Shown in pieces: positions 5,794 through 58,914 of a DNA stretch of 64,000 nt. The stretch comes from Cenococcum geophilum 1.58. Lineage: Eukaryota > Ascomycota > Dothideomycetes > Gloniales > Gloniaceae. Positions within the stretch are counted from its first letter, which is position 1. Each line of letters starts with the position of its first letter. The notes under the pieces are model-generated. The model made no database searches, had not been told where the DNA came from, and saw only the letters and a program-made list of their open reading frames with translations. The DNA is taken from positions 1,422,746 to 1,486,745 of the forward strand of contig KV748194.1 of assembly GCA_001692895.1 (NCBI GenBank). The letters run 5' to 3'. Position numbers and translations under genes: made by a program.

Positions 5794-5875
5794 TTCGCGA
5801 TGGCGGCCCATGCGGGACTTAGTAAGCGCTTACTAATCTTAGATGTGTGGGATGAATGTGCCCGGAGACTGCCCG
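5794..5875 (-). repeat. MULE right terminal inverted repeat
   Basis: Partner of 1968-2049, with the same internal palindrome. It is followed at 5876-5884 by the second copy of the 9-bp target duplication. Confidence 0.93.
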
Positions 5876-5989: not shown

Positions 5990-6202
5990 TCTTAACTGCG
6001 TGCACGAACCACATTTTATAGGACGCTATCGGTGTAAGTAGAAGAAATAAGAGTTAGATTAATTAGGAAAAGAAAGAGCCTAGTAGATTTTTACTTCCTT
6101 ACACTAGACTAGCAAGAGAAGGAGGGAGTAAGCTGCTGTATAGTTATTCCTATCTCCATTTAAGTTAATAATAAATAGGTAACGCGAGACTGCTTTATAG
6201 AT
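5990..6202 (+). mobile_element. Gypsy-1 relic, fragment 1 (gag/protease junction)
   Basis: Plus-strand remains of a Ty3/Gypsy element, just upstream of its protease. Bases up to 6202 continue, across the solo LTR insertion, into the protease motif at 6436. The 5' LTR and most of gag are not in the window. The left limit against the piggyBac-like element is an estimate. Broken, with many interruptions. Confidence 0.5.
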
Positions 6203-6430
6203 TGTTAGCGACTCAGTCAATCGAGACATAAGCACGGCAAAAAGGGTCGCGCAAGCCTGTACGATTGGATTGTCTATAAACGAGAATCTAAAGCTAGGGA
6301 AAGGAAAGGAGAAGAAGAGCAGCGCCGTTCGGTGTTTTATAAGATCTTCGCGTCACGTGATCGCAATATGCGGCAATCTGTGGCAACTTGCCGATGCGAA
6401 GTTCTGCCAAGTTCTGCCAGTGCCGTAACA
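6203..6430 (-). mobile_element. Solo LTR, sibling of the tandem-array LTR
   Basis: 228 bp bounded by a 5-bp duplication TAGAT (6198-6202 and 6431-6435). Read on the minus strand it begins TGTTACGGCACTG and ends GACTGAGTCGCTAACA, which are nearly the ends of the 205-bp LTRs of the array at 6836-19653. Between the ends only scattered blocks match. It is inserted in Gypsy-1 immediately before the protease active site. It shows little RIP. No internal region is attached, so it is a recombination remnant. Confidence 0.85.
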
Positions 6431-6435
6431 TAGAT

Positions 6436-6835
6436 AGCGGCGCGACCATAGGGTTTATTTTTTAATTACTAGTAAAAGAATTGGATTTGGACCTTAGCGG
6501 CTTATAGATACGCACTATTTAAAGTATTAGAGGTTACTAGATTCTATACTATAGGGAATAGGCTTTTTCTATAGCTAGTTAGGACCGTGATAGTCTATAG
6601 GATATATAGGAGATGCACTTCTATACCGTAGGAATTAAGGGGTATAACCTTATTTTAGGATACCTATAGCTTTACTAAGTTAATCTAGATATTAATTGGC
6701 CTTTAGCCTTATATTAATATCAGAAGTCTTAACCGCGTATTATAGTTAAAGATTAAAAGATTTTCTTAAACTATATATAAGAAGAAGGGTAGGTATATAC
6801 TGTGGTAGTGTAGATTAGACGTCGCCTACTGTCTT
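6436..6835 (+). mobile_element. Gypsy-1 relic, fragment 2 (protease)
   Basis: Ty3/Gypsy aspartic protease region on the plus strand. The DSGAT active-site motif straddles the solo LTR's duplication at about 6433-6450, and the flap/ILG-type region follows near 6640-6700. It ends at the tandem LTR array, whose target duplication GTCTT is 6831-6835. Old and broken, with several interruptions. Confidence 0.72.
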
Positions 6836-7040
6836 TGTTACGGCACTGACGCGCGTAACCTGGATAGGGCCTAGTTAGGGGGGTTCGCTTACGTCTTAGC
6901 TCCATATATATAGACGTGTCCTTTCCACGACCTTCTTCTTCTCCTTATCTTAATATCCGGGTCTATAGACATTCTAATTATATAGGCTTGCATACGTTCT
7001 AAACGGCGCTCATGCCTTAATTAACTAAGTCGCTGTAACA
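6836..7040 (+). repeat. Array LTR 1
   Basis: 205 bp, TGTTACGGC...CGCTGTAACA, with a TATATATATAG promoter-like stretch near the middle. It is preceded by the outer target duplication GTCTT and followed by the internal start TTATATTAAG. Confidence 0.93.
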
Positions 7041-7176
7041 TTATATTAAGATCCCTTAACCAATTGCAGGCTGTTATATCCTAGGTTAAAGAAGCCCTAT
7101 AGCCTAGGGTAGTTAATAGGTAATGGAGCCCTATATACTAGCAGGTAAAGAAAGAAAGGAGAGCCTAACTCCTATA

Positions 7177-7637
7177 CAGCGATGTGCACGACCAGCTTCC
7201 ACCCCCCCTCAGAAAACCTCAGAAAAATATTATTTCGCTTCGGTACGCGAGTTGTTTGTAGCGAACGCATATGCCTGCACGCAAGGGCCTTTTTGGTTGC
7301 CCTGGAGAACCGCCTTAGTTGGCCGGGAGAATCGCCTTAGTTGGCCAGGAGAATTAAATTGAAGACGTACGCTCCCTCTTATTATGGTCGCCAAAACGCG
7401 AATACAACGCTATCTCCGTAATAGCTGACGAAATTTAGCAATATCGTACGGGTGGAAACCTTACGATATTTAACAAAGATCACAATACTGCGGAGGAAGG
7501 CCAATCGCGAAGTCTGCCAGAAGTAAAGTTCTTGCAGCTAAGCATGGGCGTTCGCTACAATTTCTAGCGAGCCCGCGTACCGAAGCGAAATAATATTTTT
7601 CCAGAGGGGGGGTGGAAGCTGGTCGTGCACATCACTG
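7177..7637. mobile_element. 461-bp MITE with TA duplication (Tc1/mariner type)
   Basis: Inverted ends of about 65 bp, 5'-CAGYGATGTGCACGACCAG and its complement, flanked by a duplicated TA (7175-7176 and 7638-7639). The intact site is visible in the other two array units as CCTATAATAAAG. CAG termini and TA duplication fit Tc1/mariner/pogo mobilisation. The interior holds three short direct repeats around TTGGCCRGGAGAA (7290-7350). Base composition is nearly normal, so it has had little RIP. It encodes nothing convincing; the 79-codon frame at 7123-7362 only runs across the junction. Confidence 0.9.
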
Positions 7638-8428
7638 TAATAAAGAAGGTAGGAGATATATACTCTAAGACAAAGCAGGAATCATTATTATTAAAGTCCT
7701 ATAGTAGCTAGGTATGGAATTTTTACACTATATAGGCACCCCTTATGCTTATTATTACCGTAGTCCTATAGTGGCTAGGTATGGAATCCCTATACTTATA
7801 GATACCCTCCCTTATATTCTCTTCTTTTTTTCTTTTCTTTTTACTAAACGGCCGCCTATGCTATGGGGAAGCACGTGCCGAGTAGTAACCTCTTTCCGAC
7901 CGTATGAACTCATCGACTGACTAAGTAACGCGTATATCTGTTAACTAAACGTGTGTGCCTACCTACCTACCTACTAATTGATCGACCGATTAACTAACCG
8001 TACGTCTCTCTATCGGACGCTTGCACTATACTGCTACCTAAATAGTCCTTTTTAATGGATACTAAGCTACGTATACTTACGAGCTGCGAGGAACGAAATT
8101 ACCAGGACTATTAACGCTAGCACCACTCTGCTACTGCCTATTGACTATACCGCTTTGCCTATAGTCCTATAGACTAACGTCCTACCGACCGTACGATTAT
8201 ACCGTTACGCCTATAATCTACGACTTTTGCTTATATCGTACTGCTATAACAAACGATTGCCCTACTACAGTCAATGAGACCAATTAATAGCCTAAGCTTT
8301 ACGTTTGACTTACTATTATAAGACAACCGATAGACAAGCTCTATACTTAACCACTATTATTACCGCCGCTAGTACCGTACTACTACCTAAATATAGCTGC
8401 TCCTACCTGCAGCTAAACCTTAATTTAA

Positions 8429-8580
8429 CTATTACTACTCCTACCTATAGTACTATAATTGACTTCTGCTACTACGCCTATAGCACTATAATCGACCCTT
8501 GCTACTCTGCCTGTAGTATTCTAACTAATACTCACTACTCTACCTATAGCATCTTATTAACTACTACTGCCCTACCTATA
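8429..8580 (+). repeat. 33-bp imperfect tandem repeats, unit 1
   Basis: About four 33-bp units encoding 11-residue repeats of the pattern xSTIIDxCxxA. The same repeats recur at about 17860-18000 and 19229-19361 in the other array units. Confidence 0.6.
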
Positions 8581-8665
8581 GCAAATAACTATAACTATAT
8601 AAGAGGTAGAAGATAAATACCTAAGAATAAAGCTTAAGGGCAAGCTTTTTTAAAGGGGGGGGTAA

Positions 8666-8870
8666 TATTACGGCACTAACGCGCATAACCTAGATAGGGC
8701 CTAGTTAGGGGGGTTTATTTACGTCTTGGCTCTATATATATAGACGTATTCTTTCTATAACTTTCTTCTTTTCCTTATCTTAATATCTAGGTCTATAGAC
8801 ATTCTAATTATATAGGCTTATATACGTTCTAAACGGCGCTCGTGCCTTAATTAACTAAGTCGCTATAATA
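8666..8870 (+). repeat. Array LTR 2
   Basis: 205 bp, the second LTR of the array and the most AT-shifted copy. A polypurine run lies immediately upstream. Confidence 0.92.
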
Positions 8871-9128
8871 TTATATTAAGATCCCTTAACTAATTACAGG
8901 CTGTTATATTCTAGGTTAAAGAAGCCCTATAGCCTAGGGTAGTTAATAGGTAATAGAGCCCTATATACTAGTAGGTAAAGAAAGGAAAGAGAGCCTAACT
9001 CCTATAATAAAGAAGGTAGGAAATATATACTCTAAGATAAAGCAGGAATTATTATTATTAAAGTCCTCTAGTAGCTAGGTATAGAATCCCTATACTATAT
9101 AGGCACCCCTTATACTTATTATTACCGT

Positions 9129-9550
9129 TATAACGGAACCTTGTAGCAAGTACTACGGTAGGTTCGTTATTGGGCTAGGTGTATAGGTAAAGCAAATTAA
9201 GTTAACAACGTAATAACAATTAGTAGAGTGGTTACCTAATAGATTAACTCCAATTGTATTCTAAGAATTACTACGAGGAAGGAACTATCTAGGTAGGGAC
9301 TAAGGGTCCTTAAATACACAACCGTACTCCTAAGAAAGTCGTTACTCTATCTACTCTATCTACTCTATTCACTCTATTACAGATCTTATAGATTATATAG
9401 ATTATACAGATTACATTACGTGACCTTACTTACTATTCCTCGTCATATAGTTCCACGGGTTCCATCCTGGACCGTACCTATATTAACTAACTAGCTTCTT
9501 CTAACTTCTCTTTAAGTAGTTATAACATTATACTTAAAGCGTCCGTAATA
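9129..9550 (-). repeat. Gypsy-A LTR, left (3')
   Basis: 422 bp, the same length as 16751-17172. It includes short tandem motifs of the TCTATCTACTC and AGATTATAT types near 9345-9410. Confidence 0.93.
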
Positions 9551-12500
9551 CTATCTCCCTTCTCTCTATCTTCGTCCTTAAAGATTCTAAACATCTCCAA
9601 GTTATTTATTAGAGGTATAATGTCCGTCTAATTAATTTGGTTAATATTATTACTTATTATACCTAAAGCATCTTCTTCTTCTTTAACTCTTTGTTATACG
9701 CGTATAGTTTCGTCTATACTATTACTTAGTGAAATAATACCGTCTCCATATTCTCGTTGTGCGAAAGAGAGGTTAGTCTGTGTTATGTTGGCGAGTCCTT
9801 TATCTTAGTAACCGTTCTTTTATTTAGAGTGCACTAAAGCAAACGTTTAATTGCTCTATAACGTTTGTTTTATTTCTAACGCTAAGTATATACGTCCTAT
9901 TACTTTTAATAGTTATTAAGTTCCCTAAGTAATTTATTATAGGGTCTTATGTTTAATCTACTGCTATAAAGCTTAATAATAAGCTGTCTATTGCTCTAGC
10001 GAAACTTTATCGTTTTTATAACGCTAAGAAGGAGGCTGCTAATGCTTAATAACGTGCCCTTAATTCCCGTCTTACTGCATCCGCTTAATTAATCCGTCTT
10101 AAGAAGGTCTATAAGAAGGTTTATTTTAAGGAGTGGAAACTTATAAAGTAAGGTCTATAGGAACTTAGTAATAAAAGAATGGATTCTCTTCTAATAGAAA
10201 AGGGAACAACTCTAAGTAGTTCGGCAATCGTTCCTCTTAGGTCCCCCTTAGGTAACTCGTTCTTTGGCGATTTTTCTTTATTAACGCTTCCTAACCTATT
10301 CTCTTCCGATACTCCTATACCTTTCCTATAGCGTTCTTTAGGTTCTCTAGTAGCTCCTAGGTAGTCTTATTATAGCCTATCTACTTTACTTCGTACTATA
10401 TTTTATTGTTAACATCCTTATAGCTAACGATCTTTAAAACTTGCTATTTGTCTTCTTCCTATCCTCTATACATGTCTGCTTTGTAAACTAGTAGCTTAAC
10501 ATTACCGTATGCTAGCTCTAGCATTGCAATATACTATATAGGGTAGATCTTTATTTTAGCTGGTAGGTTCAATTTAAACGTAACTAATAAAATTTTCTAT
10601 ATAATTTTGAAAGGTCCTAGTCTAACGTAGTCTAACTTCTTACTTAGTTGTTAACTCTTAAAATTTTTGTGTAGTAGCTATACTTTATCTCCCTCCTTAA
10701 GATCTGGTCCCTTAGATCTCTTAGCATTATAGTACCTTTTTATCCTTTACTGTACTACCTTAGCTATTTCTATAAGGTTTATATAAAGATTTATTAAATT
10801 CTCTATTCTTTAATTGGCTGTGCTACTTATTTTTTTAACTTAATATAGCAATAATAAAGTCCTTAGTTTATATCCGTAATTTGCCTTAAATAGTAATATA
10901 CCCATTTCTTCTTGTAGTGTTATATTATATATAAACTATATAACTGGTAATAGTAATACCCAATTATTCTATGCGTAATTAATATAGTGCCTTAAATACT
11001 GCTCTAGTATCTAGTTTAATCTTTCTATTTAACCGTCTGTCTGTAGATAATATATAGTAAAAGTTGCTGCTTAAACTCCTTACTCTGCTAAAAACACTTC
11101 CTAAAATACTGCTACGAATCTTAGATCCCTATCCGATATAATCTTACTTAGTGCTCTATATTTTATAAACACTTCCTTAATATAGATTCTAGCGACATCT
11201 TCCACTAAGATTTCTTCTATATATACTATAAAGTATCCCTACTTTGTAAGCTTATTTACTATTACTAAGATTATATTATAATCTTGTCCGGTAATAGGGT
11301 CTCTTAATTTTGGCAACTTAATAATAAAGTCCTATAATATAACCTCCTATAGTCTCTCTGGTATTTTAATAGGTTGTAGCCCTCTATATAGCTTATGCCT
11401 CGTTGGTTTATTTCTTTAGTAATTTAGATACTCCTTAGTGACCTTCCTAGCTATCTTCTAAATTCCGTCAATAATGTACTCCTTCTAAAGTCTTAACACT
11501 AAGCCTATAGCTCCGTTATGTCCTTAAGTTAGTCCTTTATAAAAATCTTCTATAAATTATTCTGCTATGCTTCTTAGGATATACTTTGCTTCTTAGTTTT
11601 TGTATATATCTAACTATAAATCTTCTAGTTGTGCTTTTAGAATTCTTTATGCTTAAAAGCTTTTTAGTATCTTATAGACTTTCTCTAACTTATCCTCTTA
11701 AGTTACTGTAATCTTTAGATAATTGTACCTAATTAATCCGTCTATATCTTTTCGCAGTAAAGCCCCTAATGGCTTTTTGTTATTCTGTAGTTTAGTTTTT
11801 CTACTTAGAGCATCTGCTCGTATATTCTCCATACCCTTAGTATACTAAATCTCGAAATAGTATTCTATAAGCATCTCTACCCATCTAACCTGTCTTTAGT
11901 TAAGTTCCTTTATTGTTAGAAATCTTGTTAGGTTCTTATAGTCTATTCTAATTATAAATAGTTTCTTTATGCCTTATAAGAATGCTCTCTATTTTTTTAG
12001 TGCTGTAACTATACCTAATAACTCCTTATTATAGATGTTATAGTTTAGTTCCGGTGGTGTCATCTTTTAACTATAGTATACTACTAGGTGCCATCCATCT
12101 AAATGCTTTTGTATAAAGTAAGCCCCTAGTATAAAGTCTAATGCATCTATTTCTATAACCGTTTTTAATTCTAGTTAATAGATTTTAAGAACTAGCTCTT
12201 AGGTAAACAACCTTTTAACTTCTTAGAACAGTTTTTATTATTCCTTTCCCTATGCCTATAGTTCTTCTTTCTTTATTAACCGCGTAAATGGCTTAATATT
12301 TTTTAACCATTACGCTATAAACCTTCTACAGTAATTATAAAACCCTAGGAGTAATCTTAACTGCGTAACGTTCTCTAGTTTTTACCAATTTACTATAGCC
12401 TCGATCTTCTTTAGATCTATACTAAGTTAGCCTAGTTTAATAATAAATCTAATAAAATCGGTCTTCCTAGTAAAGAACTCGCATTTCTTAATTGCTACTG

Positions 12501-15500
12501 GCATCTATTCTTCTTATAATCTCTCTAAAACCCATTTAACGTGTTTTCCGTGTTCTTCCTTACTTATTAAGTAGATAATAATATCGTTAAGGTATATTAT
12601 AACAAATTCATCTAGGTATTCTTTTAACACATTATTAATACGCTTCTAGAACGTTGCTAGTGCGTTTATAAGCCCGAATTATATAACTAATGGTTTATAT
12701 AGTCCTTCCTTTAACCTAAAAGCTGCCTTTTATTTGTCGCCTTCCTTAATTCTAATCTAATAGTACGCCTATCTTAGATCTATCTTTGTAAAGATTTACG
12801 TATTGCCGATCCTATCTTAGATTTCGCTAATTAAGGGTAAAGGATACCTATCCTTTCTAGTGATGCTGTTTAACTATCTGTAGTCGATATATAGCCTTAG
12901 CTTACCATTTTTCTTTAGTACGAATAGTACTAGATAACCCGCTAATAACTGCGATGGTCTAATATATCCCTTTTATAAGTTTTCTTAGACAAACTCTTTA
13001 AGTGCTTTACCTTTCTCTTTGGTAAGCTTATAGATTAGAAAGAATCTTAGACTTATTCCTAGTTCTAATTCTATCTTATAGTCCTATGCTATATACTCTA
13101 ATAGCTTTTTACTTTCTGGTAACTATAGTTTTTTGCTGTACTTATGGTATCTCTTTAGTATATAGCTTAGTCCTTTTTCTATTTCTTTATAGGTCGCCCC
13201 TACTTAGTACTATACTAACTTAGCTTATTATCGCTTCTTACGGCGTTAAGTATCTTTAATATTAACCTAACCTATAATCCAATTAATCTTTAGATTGTAT
13301 TTCTGTAACTAAGGCATTCCTAACACTGCCTTATTATTCCCTAATAGTAATATATTAAAAGACATCTTAACTAGTCTTCCTTTAATAGTTAGCTAAATAG
13401 GTCCTATTTTAAGATTAATAATGCCTCCTTTATAGGCTATTAGATCTCCTAAAATCGTTACTAATAGGTAAGAATATTCCTTCTATCTGTGTAGTAACCC
13501 TATTCTTTTAACTGCTATTAACAAGATGTGGTTCCTTGTTGCTCTACTATCTATTAATACCTTAAACTACTAATCTTGCCACTTAGCTTGTAAATTTAGG
13601 TATTATCTTTAAATTCCTTTAAGGGTCTAAGGCTTTACTACTGGTTCCCTCTAGTCCCGTAGGCCTTTACTTTTCCTAACTATTAGCTGCTTAATCCTGT
13701 TTGTACTTAGTCTAACTTATCCCAATACTTAGTTTGCTTTTTATCTTCGATATACCACGGATAGGTATTCTCTAGATATTCTTACTATTATCGTCTATTT
13801 AGGCATTTTTCCGTAAGGAATCTTCCTGGTTAAAGTGTTAAGTCCCCTTATTCTTAAACTTCTACTAGGTGCCAACTATGCATATACTTAACATTTCGAT
13901 ATTTTGCCTCATCCGTTATCTAATATATTCTCATTAGATACTTCTGGTTTTTGTCCTTTAGTGCTCTATATATATTACACACATTATCCACACATACTAT
14001 CTACGATAGTGTGTAATATGCTTAGTGTTTTAGGTTAACTCTTAGCTCGTCTTTATCCTTAAGTTTAAACCTTTCTCGTGTTAATCTGAGCGTTGCAACT
14101 TCGTTCGTAGGTACTAAGATTTATTTCTTATTTCTCTAGTCCTCTAATTGCTCCTTTAGATCCTTTAACGTTATAATTAAGGCTCCCTTAATATAAGTTA
14201 TAGCCTTCTCTATAATCGGGTGGTTTTAAATAACTTTTTCGTCTAACCACATATAGAAATCTTCCCACTCGTTATTGTGCCTTTGCCTATACTACTTTTA
14301 ATACAGCTGCTTAAGTGTATACGGTCTATCCATAAGGAAGTATCTTCTTATTACTGCGTTATAACAACCTTTAGTATATCATTTCTTAAACCTAGTTAGA
14401 ATCCCTAGATCCTCTTCTTATTCTAGTTTAGTAAGCCACTTAGCTCTTAGTATGCCTACTTTTGGCCTATTAGTAATTCTTCGTACTAGCGCTCTATCCC
14501 TTATACATCCCAATATACTAGATCTCTTATCTAGTTTCTGTTCTTACTATAAGGTAATTCTCGCTCTAAATTCCTCTATAGTTTCTTTTCTTTTACGTCT
14601 TACGAGTAGATCCTTAAAGTCTTTATACTTCTTAATCACGGTATTAAACTTTTGATCTTTAGACTAAACACTGCGTTCTCCTAGTAAGTCCTCTAGGTCT
14701 ATATATCGGTCTCCTAGTCTAACTGCTGTTTATATTACAGATTCTCTAATCTATAAAGAAGCTCCTTACCTTTTACCTATGGGTGTCCTTATTCGTACTC
14801 CAAAATCTTAGTCCCTTAGATTCTTTAATCCTAAGCTTACTTCTAACTTAAGCTTAGCTCCCGCCTTAGTCTAACTAGGCGTTTATAGTGTTCTTATCTT
14901 ATCTTAAGAGTCTTAAATCTCACTTATCTCGTCTTAAGAGTCTTATACTTATGGGAAACTTTGTCCTAAGCTCATTTATATATTCTTAAACTAAGCTACT
15001 ACCCTACTCTATCAGTTTTCGTCCATTATGGGTCCTTAGGTGCGCCTTATCTCGTTTTAAGAATCTTAGTCGTCTTTTATCTTGTCTTAAGAATCTTAAG
15101 CCTTTGGCCTTTTGCCTTTATTAAGTAGTAAGCTAGCACTAGCAGTCGTCTGCTTGCTTAATCGTCTTTAGATATTACTCCTTCCGTCTTATAAAGTAAT
15201 AGATGCCGTATCTAATGGTGTTATAATGCCCGTTACTAAACCTTACTCTATAGCGGTCTTAGTTTCTACTTCTATTGCGTTATTAAGGTTTAGATACCCC
15301 CAGTTAGTTCCTTTACTGTCCTTATCGCTGTTAATTAATAAGTACTCCGACTTCATTGTTATTATTACTAATTATTATCTGTACGTTACTATAATATCTT
15401 AATCTAGCTTATAGAGTTAATCTTATTCTTTATCTAATTCTTAAGTCCCTTTAAATTCTCTTAACTCTGGTTCTTATAGCTAATAGCTTGCGCCGTACTT

Positions 15501-16750
15501 AGCGTCTTTATAAATTCGGCATATATTATTATAACAAAACGCAAAACTTCTAATTAAACACTCTTTTGTTCCCCGTAGTACACTATTATCCCTCTATACA
15601 TGTATATCTCCTACTATTAGTCTAGTTCCCTTTATTACATAGTAACTCTAACTATCTTTATAATCCCTTATAAAATGACCTTATTTCCCGCAATTTATAT
15701 AAGCTCTATCTTTAAACTACTAACTCTATTATGGAGTCCGCCTAAACATCTTCTGCTAATAAGATCCCTAGTTTAGCCTATGCTCCTTAGTCCTATAATT
15801 ACTAGATCCTTAACCTCTAGGTTTTTATAGTTTCTTACTTTATCTCTTATAGGCTTCTTTAGTACTACTTAGGTCCATTAGCTCTACGCCATACTATAGT
15901 TTCTAACTTAGCTTTTATTGTTGCGTGCTCTGCGCCTTATATAACTATAAAACTCTATCCTAACCTCTCTTAGTCTATTCCCTTTAAAAGATCCTATTAT
16001 TAATCTTAATCGCTTAATCTATTAATTCCCTTAGGGTGTCCGCATCTTCTATTAGAATAATTACGTTCTAAACTTTAGCCTTAAGTCCCTATTTATATTA
16101 TGCTATAAGCGCCCTATTATTCTACTTAACTTATATCGCTAACGTTTAGAACTATATTATATATTTAATGGCTAAGGTTTATTGCGTAATATCTTAGAGT
16201 TTCCTTTCCGCTGTAGTCGTTGCCTCTAGATCTCTAAACATTTATATAAGTTACTCTATAAATCTATTCTAGCTTAAGAATATAAACCGTACTTCCTAGT
16301 TCGTTATTATTATTCTATTTACTTATATCTCTATAAGGTAAAGCTTAAACTATTTAAGTGCTCTTCCTAACAAGAATAATCCTGCATACGCTATTTAATC
16401 TATAGGTGTTGCCAGCTTTGCTCCCTCTTACGCAACCTTAAAGTGCATTTGCGTAAGGAATCCTTTAAGCTTTAATCTCTCTCCTAAGAATCTTTTAATT
16501 AATGGTAACTTAACCTTTACTGCTCCTATCCCGTTAATCCGTTGTTTAAGTGCCGTATTATTTTCCGTTAGTTAATTAACTATCTCTTATAGTTGTCCAA
16601 CCGTTATAGGTTGCTATAAGTTAGTATCTGCTATATTAGTATTACCTCCTAACCTTAAAGTAGTTGCCGCCGTTAATGGCATTGTGGTGGCTGCTTTTGG
16701 TGGCATGTTATTCGACTTCTATATTTATTACCGTAACTAGGTAGTAATTG

Positions 16751-17172
16751 TGTAACGGAACCTTATAGCAAGTACTACGGTGGGTTTGTTATTGGGCTAG
16801 GTGTATAGGTAAAGCAAATTAAGTTAACAATATAATAATAACTGGTGGAGTAGTTGCCTAATAGATTAACTCTAATTATATTCTAAGAATCACTACGAGG
16901 AAGGAACTATCTAGGTAGGGACTGAGGGTCCTTAAATACACAACCGTACTCCTAAGAAAGTCGTTACTCTATCTGCTCTGTCTGCTCTATCTGCTCTATT
17001 ATAGATCTCGCAGATTATATAGATTATATAGATTATATCACGTGACCTTGCTTACCATTCCTCGTTATATAGTTCTACGGGTTCCATCCTAGACCGTACC
17101 TATATTAACCAACTAGCTTCTTCTAACTCCTCTCCGAGTAGTTATAATATTGTACTTAAAGCGTCCGTAACA
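16751..17172 (-). repeat. Gypsy-A LTR, right (5')
   Basis: 422 bp, TGTAACGGAACC...GCGTCCGTAACA. Differences from the left LTR are almost all transitions. Confidence 0.93.
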
Positions 17173-18081
17173 ACCGTAGTCCTATAGTAGCTAGGTATGG
17201 AATCCCTACACTTATAGGTACCCTCTCTTATATTCTCTTCTTTTTTTCTTTTCTCTTTATTAAACGGCCGCCTATGCTATAGGGAAGCACGTGCCGAGTA
17301 GTAACCTCTTTCCGACTATACGAACTCGTTAACTAACTGAGTAACGCGTATATCTGTTAACTAAACGCGTATGCTTACCTACCTACCTACTAATCGATCG
17401 ACCGATTAACTAACCGTACGTCTCTCTATCGGACGCTTGCACCGTACTACTACCTAAATAGTCCTTTTTAATAGATACTAAGCTACGTATACTTACAAGC
17501 TGCGAGGAACGAAATTACCAGGACTATTAACGCTGGCACCACTCTGCTACTGCCTACCAACTATACCGCTTTGCCTATAGTCCTATAGACCAACGTCCTA
17601 CCGACTATACAATTGTGCCGTTACGCCTACAATCTACGACTTTTGCTTATATCGTACTGCTATAATAAACGATTGCCCTACCATAGTTAATGAGACCAAT
17701 TGATAGCCTAAGCTCTATATTTAACCTACTATTATAAGACAACTAATAGACAAGCTCTATGCTTAACTATTATTGTTACCGCCGCTAGTACCGTACTACT
17801 ACCCAAATATAGCTGCTCCTACCTGTAGCTAAACCTTAATTTGACTACTACTACTCCTGCCTATAGTACTACAATTGACTTCTACTGCTACGCCCGCAGC
17901 ACTACAATTGACCCTTACTGCTCTGCCTGTAGCATTCTAACTAATACTTACTGCTCTGCCTATAGTATTTTATTGACTACTACTGCCCTACCTATAGTAA
18001 ATAACTATAACTATATAAGAGGTAGAAGATAAGCACCTAAGAATAAAGCTTAAGGGTAAGCTTTTTTAAAGGGGGGGGTAA

Positions 18082-18286
18082 TGTTACGGTACTGACGCGC
18101 GTAATCTAAATAGGGCCTAGTTAGGGGGGTTTGCTTATATCTTAGCTCTATATATATAGACGTGTCCTTTTTATAACCTTCTTCTTCTCCTTATCTTAAT
18201 ATCCGGGTTTATAGATATTCTAATTATATAGGCTTATATATGTTCTAAATGGCGCTCGTGCCTTAATTAACTAAGTCGCTATAACA
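18082..18286 (+). repeat. Array LTR 3
   Basis: 205 bp, starting TGTTACGGTACTGACGCGCG and ending CGCTATAACA. A polypurine run lies immediately upstream. Confidence 0.93.
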
Positions 18287-19448
18287 TTATATTAAAATCC
18301 CTTAACCGATCGCAGGCTGTTATATCCTAGGTTAAAGAAGCCCTATAGCCTAGGGTAGTTAATGGGTAATAGAGCCTTATATACTAGCAGGCAAAGGAAG
18401 AAAGGAGAGCCTAACTCCTATAATAAAGAAGGTAGGAGATGTATACTCTAAGATAAAGCAGGAATTATTGTTATTAAAGTCCTATAGTGGCTAGGTATAG
18501 AATCCCTACACTATATAGGCACCCCTTATACTTATTATTATCGTGGTCCTATAGTAGCTAGGTATAGAATCCCTATACTTATAGGTACCCTCCCTTATAT
18601 TCTCTTCTTTTTTTCTTTTCTCTTTACTAAACGGCCGCCTATACTATAGGGAAGCACGTACTGAGCAGTAACCTCTTTCTAACTGTATAAACTCGTTAAC
18701 TAACTAAGCAACGCGTATATCTGTTAACTAAACGCGTGTGCCTACCTACCTACCTACTAATCAATTGACCGATTAACTGACTGTACGTCTCTCTATTAGA
18801 CGCTTGCACCGTACTACTACCTAAATAGTCCTTTTTAATGGATACTAAGCTACGTATACTTACGAGCTGCGAGAAACAAAATTACTAGGACTATTAACGC
18901 TGGCACCACTCTGCTACTGCCTACCGACTATGACGCTTTACCTATAGTCCTATAGACCAACGTCCCACCGACCGTACGATTATGCCGTTACGCCTACAAT
19001 CCACGACTTCCGCTTGCATTGTACTGCTATAATAAACGACTGCCCTGCTACAGTTGACGAGACCAATCGATAGCCCGAGCTCTACGTTTGACCTACTATT
19101 ATAAGACAACCGATAGACGAGCTTTGTACTTAACCACTATCGTTACCGCCGCTAGTACTGTACTACTGCCTAAACATAGCTGCTCCTACCTGCAGCTAAA
19201 CCTTAATTTAACTACTACTGCTCCTGCCTGCAGTACTATAATTGACTTCTGCTGCTACGCCCGCAGCACTATAATCGACCCTTGCTGCTTTACCTACAGC
19301 ATTCTAACTAATACTCGCTGCTCTGCCTGTAGCATCTCATTAACTACTGCTGCCCCACCTATAGTAAATAACTACAACTGTATAAGAGGTAGAAGACAAG
19401 CACCTAAGAATAAAGCTTAAGGGCAAGCTTTTTTAAAAGGGGGGGTAA
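18287..19448 (+). mobile_element. Array internal region 3, uninterrupted 1162 bp
   Basis: The only array unit with no insertion and the best preserved. It holds an open frame of 110 codons at 19088-19420 that begins MTYYYKTTDRRALYLTT, contains Cys-rich 11-residue repeats (about 19229-19361) and ends shortly before the polypurine run. The same frame is present in the other two units in more decayed form. I recognise no gag, protease or polymerase motif. The repeats may reflect a real peptide or merely repetitive non-coding DNA. Confidence 0.85.
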
Positions 19449-19653
19449 TGTTACGGCACTGACGCGCGTAACCTGGATAGGGCCTAGTTAGGGGGGTTCG
19501 CTTACGTCTTGGCTCTATATATATAGACGTGTCCTTTCCACGACCTTCTTCTTCTCCTTATCTTGATATCTGGGTCTATAGACATTCTAATTATATAGGC
19601 TTGCATACGTTCTAAACGGCGCTCGTACCTTGATTGACTGAGTCGCTGTGATA
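19449..19653 (+). repeat. Array LTR 4 (terminal)
   Basis: 205 bp. It is followed directly by GTCTT (19654-19658), the same 5 bp that precede LTR 1, which marks the right border of the array. Confidence 0.93.
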
Positions 19654-22019
19654 GTCTTGGCATTTTCCTATATTTATAAAGCCTTCGGCTTCCTTCCTTC
19701 TTCCCTCTAATATACATATCACGACCTTACCAGTTACCGGAAATACACTCTTTTCTTTCTTTCTTACTGACTGTTTTACTAACTAATTATAACCGACCGA
19801 CCGACCAACCGACTAACCGACCGACCGACCGACAGACAGACTGACGGCACTGTGACTTTCCCATCTTAGAGAGGTCGTACCCTCCCACAATACTATATAT
19901 ACTACTCTTAATACTAAAAACAGGGACACAGAATATTTATTTTTGGATATCTAGCTATACGTAGTTAAGGAACTAGAGATTCTATAAGAATATATAGACT
20001 TAGAGAATATTTCTAATAAAGAGGCTATATAAACCTTACTTAACCCTATATTAGTTAAGTATAAGATAGACATAGGGGATAAATAACCTCCTTTTAGGCT
20101 ACTGTATAACCTATTAAAAAATAAGCTGGCGGTATTACGTTAATATATAGTGGACAATCTTTAGAGAGGATAGATTTGGCCCTCTATAAGCCTAGTAGGG
20201 GTACTAATTATATTTATACCTAAGAAGGATAAGACCCTTTATCTCTATATTAACTATTAGGCGCTAAACAAAATTACTATAAAGAATTGCTACCTATTAC
20301 CCTTAATAGGAGAGCTAATTAACAAACTGTTGGGCGTGAAGATATTTATAAAATTGGATCTAAAAGATGTATACTATTAAATCCGGATTAAAGCTAGTAA
20401 TAAGTAGAAAACGGCGTTCTAAATATAATACGGCTACTTTAAGTACCTAGTAATGCTATTTAAGCTTACTAACGTACTAGTAATATCTTAGGCCTATATT
20501 AATAAGGCATTATTAGGTCTATTAGACACGATATATATAGTCTACCTTAATAACATTATAGTCTACTCTAATAACTACAAAGTATATACGTACTACGTAT
20601 AAATAGTACTAAAAAGACTACGGGAATATAAGCTCTATATAAACCTAAAAAAGTATATATTTTATACTACTAGCATTAATTTTCTAGGCTTTATTATTAG
20701 CGTTAATAGAGTATTAATAGAGGAAAGTTAGGTAGACGCTAGCCCTACCCTACAATATTTAGAGAAGTATAGGTTTTTTTAGGTACGGCAAACTTCTACT
20801 AAATATTTATTGTTTACTATTTATAAGTAATACTCCTAATTACTAATTTATTAAAAGGATTTAAGAATAGTAAGAAGTTAGGACTCTTTATATTTAGGGA
20901 AGCTGCTAAGCAGGCTATAAACTGGTTAAAGGATTTGTTTATATTAGCGCCTATCCTAATACACTTCTACTAGGAGCTATGTATATACTTTAAAATAAAT
21001 ATATCCGGCTTTACCCTAGGGGTAATTATATCTTAATTAAAAGACGGAGAATAGCATCCTATAGCGTTTTAGTTAAGGAAAATGACCCCTATAGAATAGC
21101 GTTATATAATATACAACTAGGAGCTGCTTATAATAGTTATAGTAATAAAGCACTAGTAACATTATTATATAGGAAGCAATTACCCTATTAAAGTCCTTAT
21201 AGACTATAATAACCTAAAATACTTTATAACTATAAAGGTATTAAGCGGTTAATAAGCTAGATAGGTAGAGGCATTATTACAGTATAACTTTAAAATTATG
21301 TACCGACTAGGAAAGATAAATCCCACTAATAGGTTATTAAGACGTTTAGATTATAAGATAGAAAGGATTTAGGACAGTATAGGGGAAATAATCCCTATAT
21401 TGCAAAATTTACTTAGAAAGAAAGAAGACTCTTTCCCTAAAACTATAGAATTTTGCGGTAGGGTAGAGGTCCTAGTAATACAGCTATAAAGCGCTATAAT
21501 TATAGAGCTATAGGATATAATTATAGACTAGGTTATAGGCTAGGTAAATATTATAAAGTTAGCATACTTTAGAATTAGCGAGAATTCTACGGGATATACT
21601 AGGGGTATTATAGCACCTTTAACTTAACGGTATATTAGCTATAAGTGTCCGGATCTAAGGGGGATAGGCGAGATACCTATCTGCAGTATAGCACACTATA
21701 TAACAGTAGGAGAATTTACTAGCACTAATAGTTTAAAACGTTTTATGCTACGCCTTATATCTATAATAGCGGTAAGTAAAATAGAAGTAAGCGATCTATA
21801 CAAAACCTTTTTAGATCTTCTTTTTTAAGTATAATAAAGGGACGCCTTCGTTTCTAGGGAGAGGTAGAAAGATATAGTGGAGACTAACTTAGCCGGAGTT
21901 ACTAAGAAGCTATAGTAATAAGACTAAATGGGTCTGTTACGCTTTAAGGGTGCTATATATATCCTAAAGGACTAAGCGGTTTAAGATAAAATTCTAAAGA
22001 TCTTCTATAATAACCCTTA
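19654..22019 (+). mobile_element. Gypsy-1 relic, fragment 3 (linker, RT, RNase H)
   Basis: Continuation of Gypsy-1. A linker runs to about 19920 and includes a (GACC)n-type microsatellite at about 19787-19850. Reverse transcriptase follows (about 20050-20700; FVPKKDKTLYLYINYQALN is visible near 20210-20265), then RNase H and the start of integrase. It is interrupted at 22020 by the SINE-like element, whose 12-bp duplication is 22008-22019. Broken, with many interruptions. Confidence 0.8.
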
Positions 22020-23028
22020 GGCCGTCGAAAACGGACTCTACACCTATACGTGGTGACGGCTACGAACCTAAGTCTTCGAAGTTTAGACTTAGAGCTAACG
22101 CAGAAACGTTATACAGCGTATGATACAACCTAGTGGTGGTGGTTATAGGTATTATGGGCAGTAGTAAAAAGTTTTTACATAGGATGGTAAGATCTCGGAA
22201 ACGACCGCTGAGTGCCCCTTACGGCAATAACAACAACACTATTCTCCTATTAAGGCACCTATACGATCCAATATAGATACGCGGCATTCGATAACATCCC
22301 CTAACCCCCAGTAGAGAGCATTAACGACCTCTTATATTAACGAATAAGCGATTATAAACAAGCAACGAGCAAATATACGGCCCCTTCTAACCCCTAGGGC
22401 AATCGCCCGCGGAGTATGCAGTCACTCGCCATCAACTATTAAATACTACCTAGCAGCCTAGACAACACCGTACGGTTTTCCTATCTCCTTTTAAGGAGTA
22501 GTAACCCTTGGCAAGGGCCTAGTAACTAGGGCCTAGGCATAAAAGATACTTAGGCACACACGTCCCGCTCGCCTTTTAGTATAATGGTTTATGGATAAAT
22601 CCCCCTTACGCCTTTAATAGGCCTTAAGGGGGGGGGAGGCATGGCGTATATAGTAATAGTTAACAAGAGATAGTATACGGGGGGTAATTAAAATACGGAA
22701 TATAACTATAAGTGTATAGCAATCGAACGGCAAGGCCTAGCTAGGACGTAGTGAACCCTAGCTAGGATAAGCTAAAGAAGGAAGTAGTGGTTCCTAAGGA
22801 GTTCAAATATTTAAGGAGGATAGGACGTAGCCATAGGCCCGCAGGGCCGCTGCTATGGACGAACATGGCAAACCGGGGTTTTTTATCCTACTGAGGTGGC
22901 TTATAGGGTTTTTCCTCCCCCAAACTACAGGGTTTTCTTCCTATAAATTACAAGTTTTCCCCCTGTGACGGAGTAGTCTGCGTGGGCCTAGATAGGATCC
23001 GTATCAGACGTTAATTAAGAATTACTAC
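22020..23028 (+). mobile_element. SINE-like retroposon, copy 1
   Basis: 1009 bp, starting GGCCGTCG and ending in a short TAC-repeat tail. It is flanked by a 12-bp duplication TAATAACCCTTA (22008-22019, 23029-23040). A second copy lies inverted at 40563-41588. It has no long frame, no TG..CA ends and no convincing inverted repeats, so LTR and DNA-transposon origins are unlikely. Long, variable duplications with a simple-repeat 3' tail indicate target-primed reverse transcription by a LINE. No clear pol III A/B boxes were found, so SINE-like is a structural label only. Confidence 0.8.
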
Positions 23029-29590: not shown

Positions 29591-29595
29591 TTATA

Positions 29596-38355: not shown

Positions 38356-38360
38356 CTTTT

Positions 38361-41588: not shown

Positions 41589-41603
41589 TAGCGTATTTAA
41601 TTA

Positions 41604-51999: not shown

Positions 52000-52186
52000 T
52001 GTTATAGTGCTGCAATAAAGTAGACTGAATAACTACGTTGTGGTATAAAGAGGGGAAGAAGGTGGAAAGGGGGTATTGTATATAAATAGTAGGGCCGGCC
52101 GCCAAGTCGCTAGTGGTGGGCTAGCCAATAGTAGGGAATAGTACAAGACAGTATAAAACAGTATGCGTTAGGTCAGTGCCGTAACA
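52000..52186 (-). repeat. Gypsy-D LTR, left (3')
   Basis: 187 bp, near-identical to 58728-58914 with a handful of transitions. Confidence 0.93.
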
Positions 52187-55100
52187 GTACTCCTTTCCCC
52201 TAGATAGTTTAGTCCCTAAACTAAATAAATAACTTAAAAATAGGCAGTGTACGGGGTTGCCTATTTTCTACCGTAAAGATATTAGTTCCGCTTACCGCCC
52301 TTAACTAAGCTAATAGCGATTTTCTATACCGGGCATGGAAAATCCTAATTAGTTAGTTTAGTGAGTAAGGTCGGTAGAACTCTACACCGCCACCCAAATC
52401 GGTCCGTATGGCGTTTCTTAGTAAGAATTTGGCCAATTAGACAACTTCGACCGCCGGTTAAAGTTCCGTAATATCTTAACTACTACAAATTTTAATGCGG
52501 TGGTCGGCCGCGACCTTAGCGTAACTTTTCCTTATCTTATACCCAGTCTAGGGGTTCTAGCTTTTTAGGGTGTTGCTTATAAAAGCGCTATACAGCTTAT
52601 TTACAACCCTTTAGGTCTTCCTCTAGCTGCTAGGTTATATCCTTATAATATTTCCATTTAATCTTATAAGTTAGGCCCTAGGGGTCTTCGTTGTATATAT
52701 TAAGGATTTTCTTAAACTCCTATTTGTCTTCTATGTTGCCGTTATTATCTCTCTTTGCTACTCGTCCTTATATATTACAGCGCTCTACGGTATTAATATT
52801 TGCTTAGCTAGGGATCTCTTTAGCAGCCTAGAGGCGGACCTTAGATATATAAAAGGATTTATTTACTCGGATGTGGTCTAGGAGGTCTACTATAACTACC
52901 CCTTAGTATACTGCGAGTACGGGGTACGGGCCGTCCCATTTATTGTCCCATTTCTTCTTAGGTCTATTTGTCTTTATATTTTCTAAGCTAACTATAACCA
53001 TATTACCTTTGTAAAATAACGCGCTCTTATTCTTATGGGTATTAGTATTGTCTTTATAGCGTTGCTGTAAAATCTAGGCTAGGGCCTTAAGCTATGTTAA
53101 TATCCGCTTAAAGCGGTTGGCCACAGAGTCTACGTAAAAGAACTCCTTCTTTGCTTATGTTAATAGTATTAGTAGGTAGGGGCTAGCAGGCTCGATTCCG
53201 AGGCGAGGGTTAAAGCTATAGTTTATAAAAAATAGGGAGATGCCTGTGCTCTTATTAACTTAGTTATTTATAGTAAACTTAGTAAGCAGTAGGTAGTTAA
53301 CCTAGTTGTCCTATATAAAGCTAATAAAAGCATAAAGGTATTTATTTACGGCGGCGTTAATAATTTTAGTTTAGCCGTCCGTTTTTAGGTACTAGGCTAA
53401 GCTTGGTCGCAAGGTTATTTTAAGGCGTTTACTTAGTCGTTGCTAGAAGTCGCTAACAAATTATGTGCCGTGATTAGAGATAATCGTGCTTGGTATACCG
53501 TAGAGCTTATATACGTTATTAATAAAGCTATTAACTAACTCCTTTGTTAAGAGTCCTGTTACTAAAATAAGGTATTATATTTTAGTTAGGCGGTCTATAA
53601 TAATAAGGATATATTTATATGCCTTACTATAGCGTTAGCATACTAGCAGCGTTATAATATAGTTAATTAAGATATCGGTCTACGGGCGGGTGGGTAATTT
53701 TAGTAGCTTTAGAAAACTGGGCGGGGCAGAATAGGGGGTCTTAGTGCGAAAGTATAGGGTATAGTCTTTAACAAAGGTAGCTGTAAACTAGGAGATTCCT
53801 AGCCACTAGTATATTTAGTTTAAGAGGTTAAGAGTCTTAACCCGGCTAGGGTAATTAGTGGGGCCGCTGCTATAAGAGTAATAGGTAACTTTTAGGCAAA
53901 GGTCTAGGGCGTTAGGGATAAAGAGACGTTAGTGGAAGTAGATCTATCTATTAACGATACTGTATTCTAACTTATCGCAATAAAGTAATTTCCTAATTTT
54001 CTTTAGCTAATAGTAAGCTTTCCAATTACGCAGGGCTGCCACTATATCTCTTATGAGTTCGTTCTCCTAGTATCCTAGCCAGATTAACTTATCTAGTAAC
54101 TTTTTGGCTATTTTAGGGTCTAGAGCGGCTATAAACTCTACGTTGTTAGAGTTATAGGACTTATATAGTAATTCTTCTAAGATTATAGGGTTAACTTTTT
54201 AGGGCGGTATAACGACTTGGGCTTGGTAGCGGAGGCGTTTATTATTAGCGTCCTTAGGCCTTATTCCTAGTAGCCAGCTTAGGGTATTAGGGAGTGTGGC
54301 TTTGCTGCTAGGTCTATATATAATTATAAAGTTAAACTATAAAAGGAACTTTACCTACTAGACTTAGCGCTAGTTTAGCTGCTTAGTAGTTATAAACGTC
54401 TATAGGTTTTTATAGTTAATAATAATTTTAAATAGCTCCTTAGTCCCTTGCAGCTTAGGACGCTATTTCTTTAAGGCCTTAATAATAGCTAGGAGTTCTT
54501 TATTATAGATTTTATAATTATATTTTGGCGCGGAGTGCTTTATAGAGAAGAATACGACCAGTTTTAATTTTCTATTGTTATTGTACTGGGAAAGGACTCC
54601 GCTAGAAGCCTAATTTAATGCATTTATCTCTACCACTGTTTTCTTCGTATAGTTATAGTATGCTAGTACTGGTGCTAAAGTAAAGGCTCCCTTAAGGGCC
54701 TTAAACGATTTGGCTTGTTCTAATCCCTATAGCCATCCGATATCCTTCTTTAGGAGTTTTGTTATAGGTGTAGCGATAGTAAAGTAGCCTTAGATAAATT
54801 GTTAGTAGAAGTTCGCGAAGCTGAGAAATTGTTATAGTTCTTTAATTAATGTTAGGTCCTTCTATTCCTATAAGGCCTGTATCTTCTTAGGGTCCATGGT
54901 TATACTATTAGTTAAGATAATTAAGCCAAGGTATTTTATTTTAGTAGAGTAGAACTTAGACTTATTAATATTAATCTGAAGTCTAGTATTGCTGAGTCTT
55001 TAGATAACTTTATTTATATACTTAATATACTTAGCGCGTATTTTAGAAAAGATAAGGACGTTATTAAGGTAGGCAGTGCAGTAGTTATTAAGGGCGTTGT

Positions 55101-58100
55101 ATATAATATAGTTAATATAGTTCTAGAATATAGTAGGTGCGTTATAGAGGCTAAATAGTATAACTAGTATCTTATAGAGTCCGAACCGGGTAATAAATGC
55201 TATAAGCTACTTATAGCCCTCCGCAATCCAGATCCGGTTAAACGCAGTAATTATATTAAGTTTAGTAAAGTACTTAGCGCTATAAAGTACGTCAAGTGTC
55301 TCGCGGATTAGTGGCAGTGGGTATTAATTCTTAATAGTAACTATGTTTAGGCCTTGGTAGTTATAGTAGATTTATATACCGCCGCCAGGCTTAGCAGTAA
55401 GGAGGAGTAGTATAGTAGCTAGTGAGATTAATTCGCGGATAAAACCCTTATCTAGCATCTTATTAATCCACTTCTTTATACACCTAAGTTTAGCAGGTAA
55501 GAGTGGTCTATTTTTATAGTACGGGGCCTAGTTTCCGGGGGTAATCTTAATTTTATAGTCCTATAGTTAGTAAGGGGGCAGCTTATCTACGTTTTTAGGG
55601 AGAAAGTGCTTAATATATTTACTAAACTCCTTTAGTAGGCGTTATAGAATGTCTTTACAGGTTAATCCTAGTTTGCCTTTTAAGAATTTTTTAATATTAG
55701 TATTAACTATCTTCCAATATAAAAGCTCGGGTTTAGTTTTTAGATTTGTCTTAAGGAAGTTGTAGAAATAGGGGGGGAGCACTTTACGGGCTTCCTTTAT
55801 TATATAGTCGCCTTCCACTAGCCGGCAGAAAGACCTTTTTAATAGGTTTAATACTTCTATTAGGCCTATAAGCAGCTCTTTAAGCAGCTATCGGTGCTTA
55901 TCTTGTTTAACTAGTTCTACTAGCTCCGCTATATAGATCCTTATTACCTTTACGTCTTTTTATTTATAGAACTGGGTAAAATTAATAGTATAGGTGCATT
56001 TAATATTGTTTAGGTTAGGGCGTGTCTGGCTCTCTAGTGCTATGGCTAGGCTAGTATAGCTTAGTCGGCCTAGGGGGGCGGAAATAAGGCGGTGGCCCTA
56101 TATAGTACGCGCGGGAGATAGGTATGAGGTTAGGCGTTACGGTGGCGCGGTTTCTATTATCTAGGTCTTGGTAGTTCTATAGCCAGTCCTTGCTATAACG
56201 CAAGCTATAGTGTGCGTATATAGCATATGGCTTAGTTCTAGGTGTTAGGCTAGGCGGCTAAGGTTTAAATAGTGCCTAGGTTAGGGTTAGATTCTTAATA
56301 GTGGCGGCGCGAAGCGGACCTTCTTCCTTAGTCTTGGTAGGGCTGGCTGGCCCGTTATTTTAGTCTTAAGTGCTAGGTTAGTCTAGTCTTCTACTATCTT
56401 GTTTCTTTACAGCTATATAGGCTCCCCTTTATTAGGAACGTCTTCTACTATTAGGGCTTTATATATAGTCCTAGGCACTAGGCTTAGTAGTGCTAAGTAT
56501 CTACNTAGGGCGTCCCTACTAACGTCGGCTATCCCCTATAGGAGGTAGTGTCTAAAGTAGTAGTCTAAGTTAAAGCGGATCTTAAGTTTCCTAAAGCTAG
56601 GATAGGGCTTATATTTCTGAAGCTAGGGTATACCTAGGATAATTAGGGTAGTAGGTAAGAGTTTAGTAACAAAAAAGAGTATAGCTTTAGTATAGAGGCC
56701 GATTAATATTTGGGCGGTAAAGTAGTCCGTAATAAGCGAAGTTAGGATACTGTTTACGAGGCGCAGTGGCCTAGGTACTAGTAGCTTCTTAGTTATAACG
56801 TTATACTTTCTTATAATAGACTCTACGTTAATAAATGCTATTATAGTACTACTAGAGTCTACTAGGCTTACTGTATTAATATAAACTTAGGGGTATAGGT
56901 TACGTAATAAGGAGAGTTAGGTTTAAATAAGGATTAATTTCTTATTACTGTTTACTAATCTAAGATTAAGTGGTAGTTTACTAATAGAAAGAACTAATTA
57001 ATCTAATAATAGGGACCTAATCTTCTTATCTTCCTCCTTATATGGTTTAGACCCTTAGGCGCAACTTAGTCTAAGGGTCTGCCTTTTAATAACTAGGGTA
57101 CGGGGCTGTCTTAGCGGGGCGGTCCAGTATCCATCTGGCTAATAGTGTCGGTTTCTGTTTTAGTTAGGGTATAGGAAAATAATACCTCGCTAACGACGTG
57201 GCCGTGTTTGTATTTGCTAGCGCGAAGTCGCCAATACTGGGCGTTATTAACGGGTTGGGCTCCTATATAGGGTATGGTTTAAAGTAACTAAGCCGTAAGG
57301 TTAAAGGGGGGGGGTTATCTACCGCGGCTATAATAGGCTCCGTAGTTGCCGCGTCTATAATAGACTCCACAGTCGCCGCGTCCGCGGTTATTTGTTTACG
57401 TCGTTTAATGGGGTGGTATTAGGACTAGGTTTGCTGTCTTAGTGGGGTTATAGGTATCCTTCTAGTGGCTAAGTAGGCTATAGGCAAGGCACAGTCTATT
57501 ATTAATGCGGCGCTTACACTCTATATCTAAGATTCTATTAAGGTCTATAGGTTCTCTAGTTACTGCTAGGGTTGGGGTTAATATAGGGGCAGGGGCTTAG
57601 GTAGGTAGGTAGTAGTTAGCGTTTTTTTTAAGGTTGGCTCGGTGTGTATAATTCGCGAGGTTTTTAGCGAATATATCTATCTGCTTACTCTAACCTATAT
57701 AGTCGCTGTTATTAATTTTATAGGCTAGTCTAAGTACTAGCTCTTCTATCTTTAAAGAGATAAACTTTTAGAGTAGGTCTACCTTTTATTTATTTGTCTT
57801 CTTAGCGCAAACTATTAGCTCGTTAAGCTCTCCCTTTTAGGACTAGTAATTACGCTCGCTTTAGGGAAAATAGTTAAGCTTATTCTTTATAACCTAGGTT
57901 ATATTAAGAACCTTATAGTAGGCAGTAAGGTCTTTAAGCATATCTTCCTTAATAGGCCATTTCCACGCAGATATATTGTTTGGGTTCTTATATATAAGCT
58001 CTAGGCCCTACTTAATAAACTTATAGGCCTTATTCTCTAGTATATCCGAGATATAAAGGATCTGGGACTAAACTATATTAAAGTAGTCCTAGTCCCGGTT

Positions 58101-58727
58101 AAAGACTCCCTTAATCTTAATATGCTAGGTTTTAAAATTAGCTTATTATTCTAGCGGGGTGCCTTTTCTACTAAATATTAGCGGGTCTTTAGATCTCCGT
58201 TTTTTTTATTAAGTTACTACCGTTATTATAGGGGTTGATTGTTTTAGAACGGTAATAGTCTCTACTTAGGAGTTAATAGTTCCTATCTAGAAAGTAATAA
58301 GGGCACTAAGGTTTTCGTTAGCTTTTTTATTAGCGGTGTTTATGTTATATATATACTATAGTCCTACTTTAATGTTATTAAGGAACTTATTAGTATAGTT
58401 AATAAGGGTAAGGTAAGCTTTGCTAGGCTTAAAGGTCTTAGGGTATAGTAGGGAGCGGCAGATTATCCACGCGATATTAGGGTATATCTCTATAAATAGG
58501 TCTACAAAAACATCGTAGGGGTTTTAGGTTTCGGCCATTTCGGCGTTATTAGTGTCGCCTATTTAGGCGTTAGGTAAAAACTAAGGATTGTTCTAGGACT
58601 ATGCTAGGGACGTGTTAGTTTTAGCAGAGGCGCGTATAGGTTGCGATTGCTTTAGGGCGGAGGTTAATTGGCTGGGGTATAGGGAATTAGTGATCGCGAT
58701 GGGGCGCAAATTAAAGATACCACAAAC

Positions 58728-58914
58728 TGTCACAGTGCTGCAATAAAGTAGACTAAATAACTACGTTGTGGTATAAAGAGGGGAAGAAGGTGGAAAGGGG
58801 GTATTGTATATAAATAGTAGGGCCGGCCGCCAAGTCGCTAGTGGTGGGCCAGCCAACAGTAGGGAACAGTACGAGACAGTATGAAACAGTATGCGTCAGG
58901 TCAGTGCCGTGACA
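58728..58914 (-). repeat. Gypsy-D LTR, right (5')
   Basis: 187 bp, the better preserved copy. It contains the motif GGGCCGGCCGCC near 58822. Confidence 0.93.

Follow-up and report, generated by a model that had tools for sequence, protein, structure and literature searches.

In a 64,000-nucleotide stretch of the genome of Cenococcum geophilum 1.58 (contig KV748194.1, positions 1,422,746 to 1,486,745, forward strand; hereafter the window), three units of a short long terminal repeat (LTR) retrotransposon without detectable coding domains form a tandem array at a single insertion site, neighbouring units sharing the LTR that lies between them. The array has been mutated by repeat-induced point mutation (RIP), and it probably arose by the insertion of one non-autonomous element, followed by growth in place through unequal recombination between LTRs. 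It would be a clean and well-preserved case in which recombination between LTRs has multiplied an element without genes in a fungus with active RIP.

The anatomy of the array was read from a self-comparison of the window (Table 1). Four LTRs of 205 bp are interleaved with three internal regions, each of which measures exactly 1162 bp when nested inserts are subtracted, in the same orientation throughout and with an LTR at both ends; the lengths given for these parts in the first-pass annotation are exact to the base. LTR 1 reads TGTTAC...GTAACA, and self-BLAST identity ends at the LTR borders or within a few bases of them. One unit with two LTRs would measure 1572 bp. Unit 1 is interrupted by a 461-bp terminal inverted repeat (TIR) element, which we take to be a Tc1/mariner-like miniature inverted-repeat transposable element (MITE), and unit 2 by a Ty3/Gypsy-type LTR element; after removal of the MITE with one TA and of the Gypsy with one ACCGT, all three internal regions align without gaps. 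A polypurine tract (PPT) closes each of them, as previously annotated, with AAAGGGGGGGGTAA as the terminal sequence in two units and AAAAGGGGGGGTAA in one. The inner LTRs stand directly between the PPT and the sequence on the primer-binding site (PBS) side, without a target duplication of their own, and the duplication GTCTT, which had already been described as single, occurs only at the ends of the array and encloses the whole of it. A 36-base pattern built from the LTR ends of the array matches the window four times, at the four LTRs, and matches nothing in 100 shuffles, which shows only that the window holds no fifth close copy and that the matches are not due to chance. Within the internal region, a 33-bp imperfect tandem repeat of about two copies lies at 19211-19289 and at 8444-8518. 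The target of the array itself resembles the LTR (TGTGG...CCACA) of yet another element (6801-6835 and 19659-19889), of which no second copy was found in the window; downstream of it, starting near 20216, the plus strand encodes a reverse transcriptase (PF00078, E 2.9e-15).

Transitions account for 201 of the 203 variable columns of the array (39 of 39 in the LTRs, 162 of 164 in the internal regions), there are no indels, and each of the two transversions, both in the internal regions, is private to one unit. In LTRs 2 and 3 and in all internal regions, the context seen most often is G>A after T, followed by C>T before A, which in LTR 3 shares second place with C>T before G. The TpA/ApT ratio lies between 1.44 and 2.13 across the seven parts of the array, versus 0.68 where the window is gene-rich, at its end; a related solo LTR has 0.85 and the MITE 1.04, and neither has a RIP-like composition. 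The array is therefore a RIP-mutated repeat, as had been proposed. Equal unit lengths despite RIP, which the first-pass annotation considered unusual, are to be expected, since RIP makes transitions and leaves length unchanged.

RIP is markedly depleted at the edges of the array. Variable cells are in the RIP state in 11 of 78 cases in the outer LTRs versus 51 of 78 in the inner ones (Fisher p 5e-11). Counted per 20 variable columns, hits number 1 at the left edge, mostly 8 to 17 in the middle of the array (with one group at 6 and one at 7) and 2 in each of two groups at the right end, the last group of the profile holding only 2 columns, of which 1 is in the RIP state. The zone of strongly reduced RIP extends over about 165 bp at the left (LTR 1 positions 1-164, with 2 of 30 columns hit) versus about 767 bp at the right, so that the two low-RIP zones (6836-7000 and 18890-19653) are asymmetric. 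Raw counts of shared RIP columns are 43 for units 1 and 2 and 12 and 15 for the other pairs. The idea that units 1 and 2 have part of their history in common was considered on this account and rejected, the excess vanishing once the low RIP of unit 3 in its right half is fitted (in internal columns 601-1162, unit 3 is RIPped at 19 of 92 columns versus 61 of 92 for unit 1). No two units can be shown to be closer to each other than to the third. With intensity fitted per quarter, sharing among the three internal regions fits independent RIP (G 6.12, 8 df, p 0.63), and therefore the three copies were probably still almost the same at the start of the visible phase of RIP; against this it has to be counted that the test detects asymmetry between pairs only and is blind to hot sites common to all units.

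The course of events that we infer can be outlined as follows. A short non-autonomous element, with 205-bp LTRs and a 1162-bp internal region, would have inserted once and generated the GTCTT duplication; its reverse transcription would have been primed from its own 5′ end, with proteins supplied in trans by another element. Unequal homologous recombination between LTRs, on sister chromatids or homologues, would then have added two units and left the inner LTRs shared. RIP would subsequently have mutated the three near-identical units independently, and least at the two outer LTRs, and the MITE and the Gypsy would have entered units 1 and 2, respectively, most simply after completion of the array. 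Recombination between LTRs of about this length probably occurs in this lineage, because a related solo LTR with an ATCTA duplication of its own is found some 400 bp left of the array. The first-pass annotation had named integration as a unit and unequal recombination in place as the two candidate origins; both are valid candidates, and there was one integration site. We favour growth in place, for which the fission yeast and maize arrays described below offer precedents, over the integration of a multimer, and also over the recombination of a cDNA with a resident copy. What tells against this preference is that either of the two other routes would leave the same final anatomy and that no shared variant separates them; the three routes are not mutually exclusive, the steps may have differed, and sequence alone does not discriminate between them.

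Integration of a multimer would have required the units to be joined before or during integration, by template switching within the particle, by recombination between cDNAs or by reverse transcription of a read-through transcript, the three-unit product then being inserted once. One outer duplication and the lack of a detectable sister pair are explained no less well by a one-step origin of this kind than by growth in steps. Template switching and concatenated transcripts have been proposed for Cassandra arrays, whose compactness is said to help (PMC7215508), and heterogeneous Ty1 multimers are reported to transpose in yeast lacking Sgs1 (PMC4378997, PMC5371812). However, three joined units are needed in a single event, and a RIP-scarred progenitor, for which evidence is given below, is easier to conceive as a resident copy than as a multimer, though a non-autonomous element could move in the scarred state; we consider this route unlikely, if far from negligible. 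Multimeric arrays and tandem multimers reportedly figure in the titles of Ty1 papers. More doubtful is the recombination of a new cDNA of the same family with the inserted copy, that is, an integrase-independent insertion into a resident element, a process that is mentioned for yeast (PMC11899658). Such a cDNA would have to match the resident closely, given that indels are absent and the only two transversions private, a match that a homogeneous young family would provide. Hardly credible, finally, is an artefact in which the assembler duplicated one element. Identical unit lengths and perfect tandem spacing do raise that suspicion, but pairwise differences between the internal regions number 94, 117 and 117 in 1162 columns and those between the LTRs 11-27 in 205, two units hold different inserts, each with its own duplication, and the array is free of Ns, the four in the window being at 27275, 27289, 27327 and 56505. 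Because the mutations of the units are independent and the inserts specific to one unit, duplication by the assembler is excluded in practice.

The end of the array least hit by RIP suggests that the progenitor was already RIP-scarred before the array formed. In the last 562 bp of unit 3 together with LTR 4, the TpA/ApT ratio is 1.96 versus 0.68 in gene DNA (p 1.7e-7), and (CpA+TpG)/(ApC+GpT) is 0.72 versus 1.28 (p 5e-4). When all variable columns of the internal regions are reset to C or G, these indices are 1.92 and 0.71. Instead of recording old RIP, the TpA excess at the least-hit end could be native to the element, or could come from hot sites struck in every unit. With the related solo LTR as outgroup, the columns fixed in the four LTRs give 9 C>T or G>A changes versus 4 in the reverse direction in the alignable 3′ part, and 21 versus 16 over the whole LTR, which does not decide polarity. 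A progenitor scarred in this way would favour growth from a resident copy. We tentatively propose, as a possibility somewhat short of an even chance, that recombination between LTRs multiplied a RIP-scarred resident at its site and that the resulting array was then RIPped again, with a dome-shaped profile in which the ends of the tandem were partly spared. If this two-phase reading is true, tandem growth is possible at a RIP-scarred locus, and such arrays would keep a natural record of the way in which RIP recognises tandem homology; the edge-depleted profile could be compared with laboratory RIP of tandem duplications, which in Neurospora is reportedly the subject, by its title, of a 1999 study by Watters.

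Reverse transcription of the array element was probably self-primed, as in the Tf1/sushi group of Ty3/Gypsy elements, which is described as self-primed (PMC7175516, PMC10085805). A TATA stretch occupies LTR positions 68-77 (70-77 in LTR 1), and the transcript would start at LTR position 112, where the candidate self-primer begins. The match of primer and PBS is 10 nt long, at an offset of 3, for PBS1 and PBS2 against LTRs 1-3. Among 20000 random pieces of the window, a run of at least 10 at a PBS offset of 1-4 was obtained in 0.4%, a run of at least 9 in 1.1%, and a run of at least 9 plus a TATA box in 0.14%. Several results speak against self-priming. PBS3 (18289-18298) retains only 7 complementary nucleotides, and LTR 4 has no exact run longer than 5 with any PBS, carrying a G where LTRs 1-3 have the A, which ends the exact run. 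Weak matches are also not rare in the window, since its other three Gypsy elements give runs of 6, 8 and 8 (at offsets of 12, 2 and 4, with LTR ends set roughly). The duplex of primer and PBS, part of a three-duplex RNA structure in the Tf1/sushi group, is moreover absent from the minimum-energy RNA folds of all three predicted RIPped 5′ ends, none of which folds clearly better than its shuffles (z -0.42, -0.07 and +1.26). RIP could have weakened the matches of PBS3 and LTR 4, and by our own reading G-U pairing would preserve the primer duplex of LTR 4. ARAGORN reported no tRNA genes, and no tRNA-type PBS was noticed by eye, without a systematic search for one.

With stops read as X, none of the six frames of internal region 3 matches a Pfam family, in agreement with the earlier description of the element as non-autonomous. 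A weak hint to the contrary is a possible decayed open reading frame in plus frame 1, where stops number 15 in 387 codons in units 1 and 3 and 20 in unit 2, fewer than simulated sequences mostly have (in order-2 simulations, the fraction with as few stops or fewer is 0.012 for unit 1, 0.06 for unit 2 and 0.011 for unit 3). The element had been called TRIM/LARD-like. The comparison with terminal-repeat retrotransposons in miniature (TRIMs) stands for the short LTRs of 205 bp and the lack of a detected gag/pol domain. The PPT is clear, the PBS a self-primer candidate, and the single unit of 1572 bp exceeds the classical size limit of TRIMs (about 0.5 kb, later widened) and falls within looser usage. 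The comparison with large retrotransposon derivatives (LARDs) fails on size, the internal region being only 1162 bp versus several kilobases (a limit of about 4 kb). A scan of the entire window with Rfam gathering scores as cut-off found no 5S or other small RNA, nor did one of 6500-9130 at E values up to 1.

Each of the two nested inserts is present in one unit only, the matching positions in the other units being uninterrupted. As neither insert has been duplicated, the simplest order is that both entered after completion of the array. The strand and superfamily of the nested Gypsy were read from its PPT and PBS sides and from the likeness that it bears to the window's remaining Gypsy elements.

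Table 1. Coordinates of the array, its signals and inserts, and related elements in the window
Feature	Position	Strand	Remarks
Left target-site duplication GTCTT	6831..6835	.	
LTR 1, outer	6836..7040	+	7/39 variable LTR columns in RIP state
Candidate self-primer, R start (LTR position 112-121)	6947..6956	+	about 40 nt after TATA
Internal region 1	7041..8665	+	1162 bp without MITE
Candidate PBS	7043..7052	+	10-nt complementarity to LTRs 1-3; repeated in full at 8873-8882
TIR element in unit 1, 461 bp	7177..7637	.	CAGYGATGTGCACGACC ends; TA duplication 7175-7176 and 7638-7639
Polypurine tracts	8652-8665 (before LTR 2), 18068-18081, 19435-19448	+	
LTR 2, inner	8666..8870	+	26/39 columns RIPped
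Internal region 2	8871..18081	+	1162 bp without nested Gypsy
Nested Ty3/Gypsy-type LTR element in unit 2, 8044 bp	9129..17172	-	ACCGT duplication 9124-9128 and 17173-17177
LTR 3, inner	18082..18286	+	25/39 columns RIPped
Internal region 3, uninterrupted	18287..19448	+	1162 bp
LTR 4, outer	19449..19653	+	4/39 columns RIPped
Right target-site duplication GTCTT	19654..19658	.	
Related solo LTR, 228 bp	6203..6430	-	ATCTA duplication 6198-6202 and 6431-6435
Ty3/Gypsy-type LTR element, 6915 bp	52000..58914	-	187-bp LTRs 94.7% alike; ACTAG duplication
Two LTR elements related to the unit 2 Gypsy	30159-38357, 42101-49975	-	RIP-like

Several other elements of the window are related to the array. The solo LTR has the same start as the array LTR and a matching end; its freedom from RIP-like composition recalls Podospora, in which non-RIPped copies are reported to be far commoner among solo and fragment LTRs (PMC10787394). 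The element at 52000-58914 carries a reverse transcriptase (PF00078 RVT_1, E 4.5e-16), matched in its longer piece, while no Pfam match was found for two short pieces of 81 and 87 aa. The first 15 bases of its 3′ LTR are those of the array LTR, its 5′ LTR differing at one. A self-primer match of 9 nt is also present in this element, at the offset seen in the array and 38 nt after TATA. The first 8 LTR bases, TGTTACGG, also start the LTR of the Gypsy nested in unit 2, so the likeness of the LTR starts is in part general; an element of this kind is a possible autonomous helper. The two elements related to the nested Gypsy are about 77-86% identical to it over matching pieces, and both show 8 nt of complementarity between the PBS side and the LTR near position 280. 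Exact matches to the LTR-end pattern and to an internal pattern were sought in viral contigs, and none was found.

Elsewhere in the window, inverted repeats of 82 bp (1968-2049 and 5794-5875, 96% identical, spanning 3.9 kb) are possibly the ends of a DNA transposon, direct repeats of about 200 bp (29594-29783 and 59220-59421, 84% identical) are possibly solo LTRs of another family, and a pair of inverted repeats of about 1 kb lies at 22018-23034 and 40560-41590 (79% identical). The end of the window (63674-64000) gives a partial match to DUF6594 (E 2.8e-7), a family typical of filamentous ascomycetes; together with RIP, this match points to a filamentous ascomycete as the host.

The architecture of the array, with its shared LTRs, is already known from plants and fission yeast, and as architecture the array extends a known list. 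The remark of the first-pass annotation that such arrays are not well described in fungi does not hold in this respect, for the Tf2-7/8 array of Schizosaccharomyces pombe comprises 2, 3 or 4 tandem copies depending on the strain, with a shared central LTR, and its authors ascribe the structure to recombination (PMC10836971). Like that locus, the present array consists of tandem units of a fungal LTR element with a shared LTR at one site, but Tf2, of the Tf1/sushi group, is a full-length, protein-coding element, whereas the present array is RIPped and no coding domain could be detected in it. What is possibly new is that a filamentous fungus has such an array in a non-autonomous, RIPped form, that RIP is depleted at its edges and that its progenitor already looked RIPped; the titles and abstract openings of the literature matches listed name no filamentous fungus in which a non-autonomous LTR element forms an array of three units. 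Nine TRIMs have been reported in Cochliobolus heterostrophus (PMC4112212), and these are non-autonomous LTR elements of an ascomycete like that of the array, no tandem array appearing in the relevant passages of that article. Among plants, a close counterpart is the maize TRIM Wukong, likewise a small non-autonomous element with four-LTR arrays and nested inserts: the 89 intact elements include 8 with three LTRs, 5 with four, and 2 with six and seven, some arrays hold nested inserts, and recombination is inferred by the authors for the arrays of three to seven LTRs (PMC4528315). In rice, 28 clear tandems with shared LTRs were described, 10 of the 28 with a perfect 5-nt duplication; unlike the present array, the 28 tandems contain coding domains, and that study excludes the recombination of two independent elements, leaving both recombination in place and complex insertion as candidate routes (PMC11899658). 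The same models of origin are discussed for the tandems of Cassandra and of rice (PMC7215508, PMC11899658), and Cassandra resembles the array in being a shared-LTR tandem and differs from it in that its LTRs carry 5S-like sequence (PMC10886601), of which Rfam detects none here.

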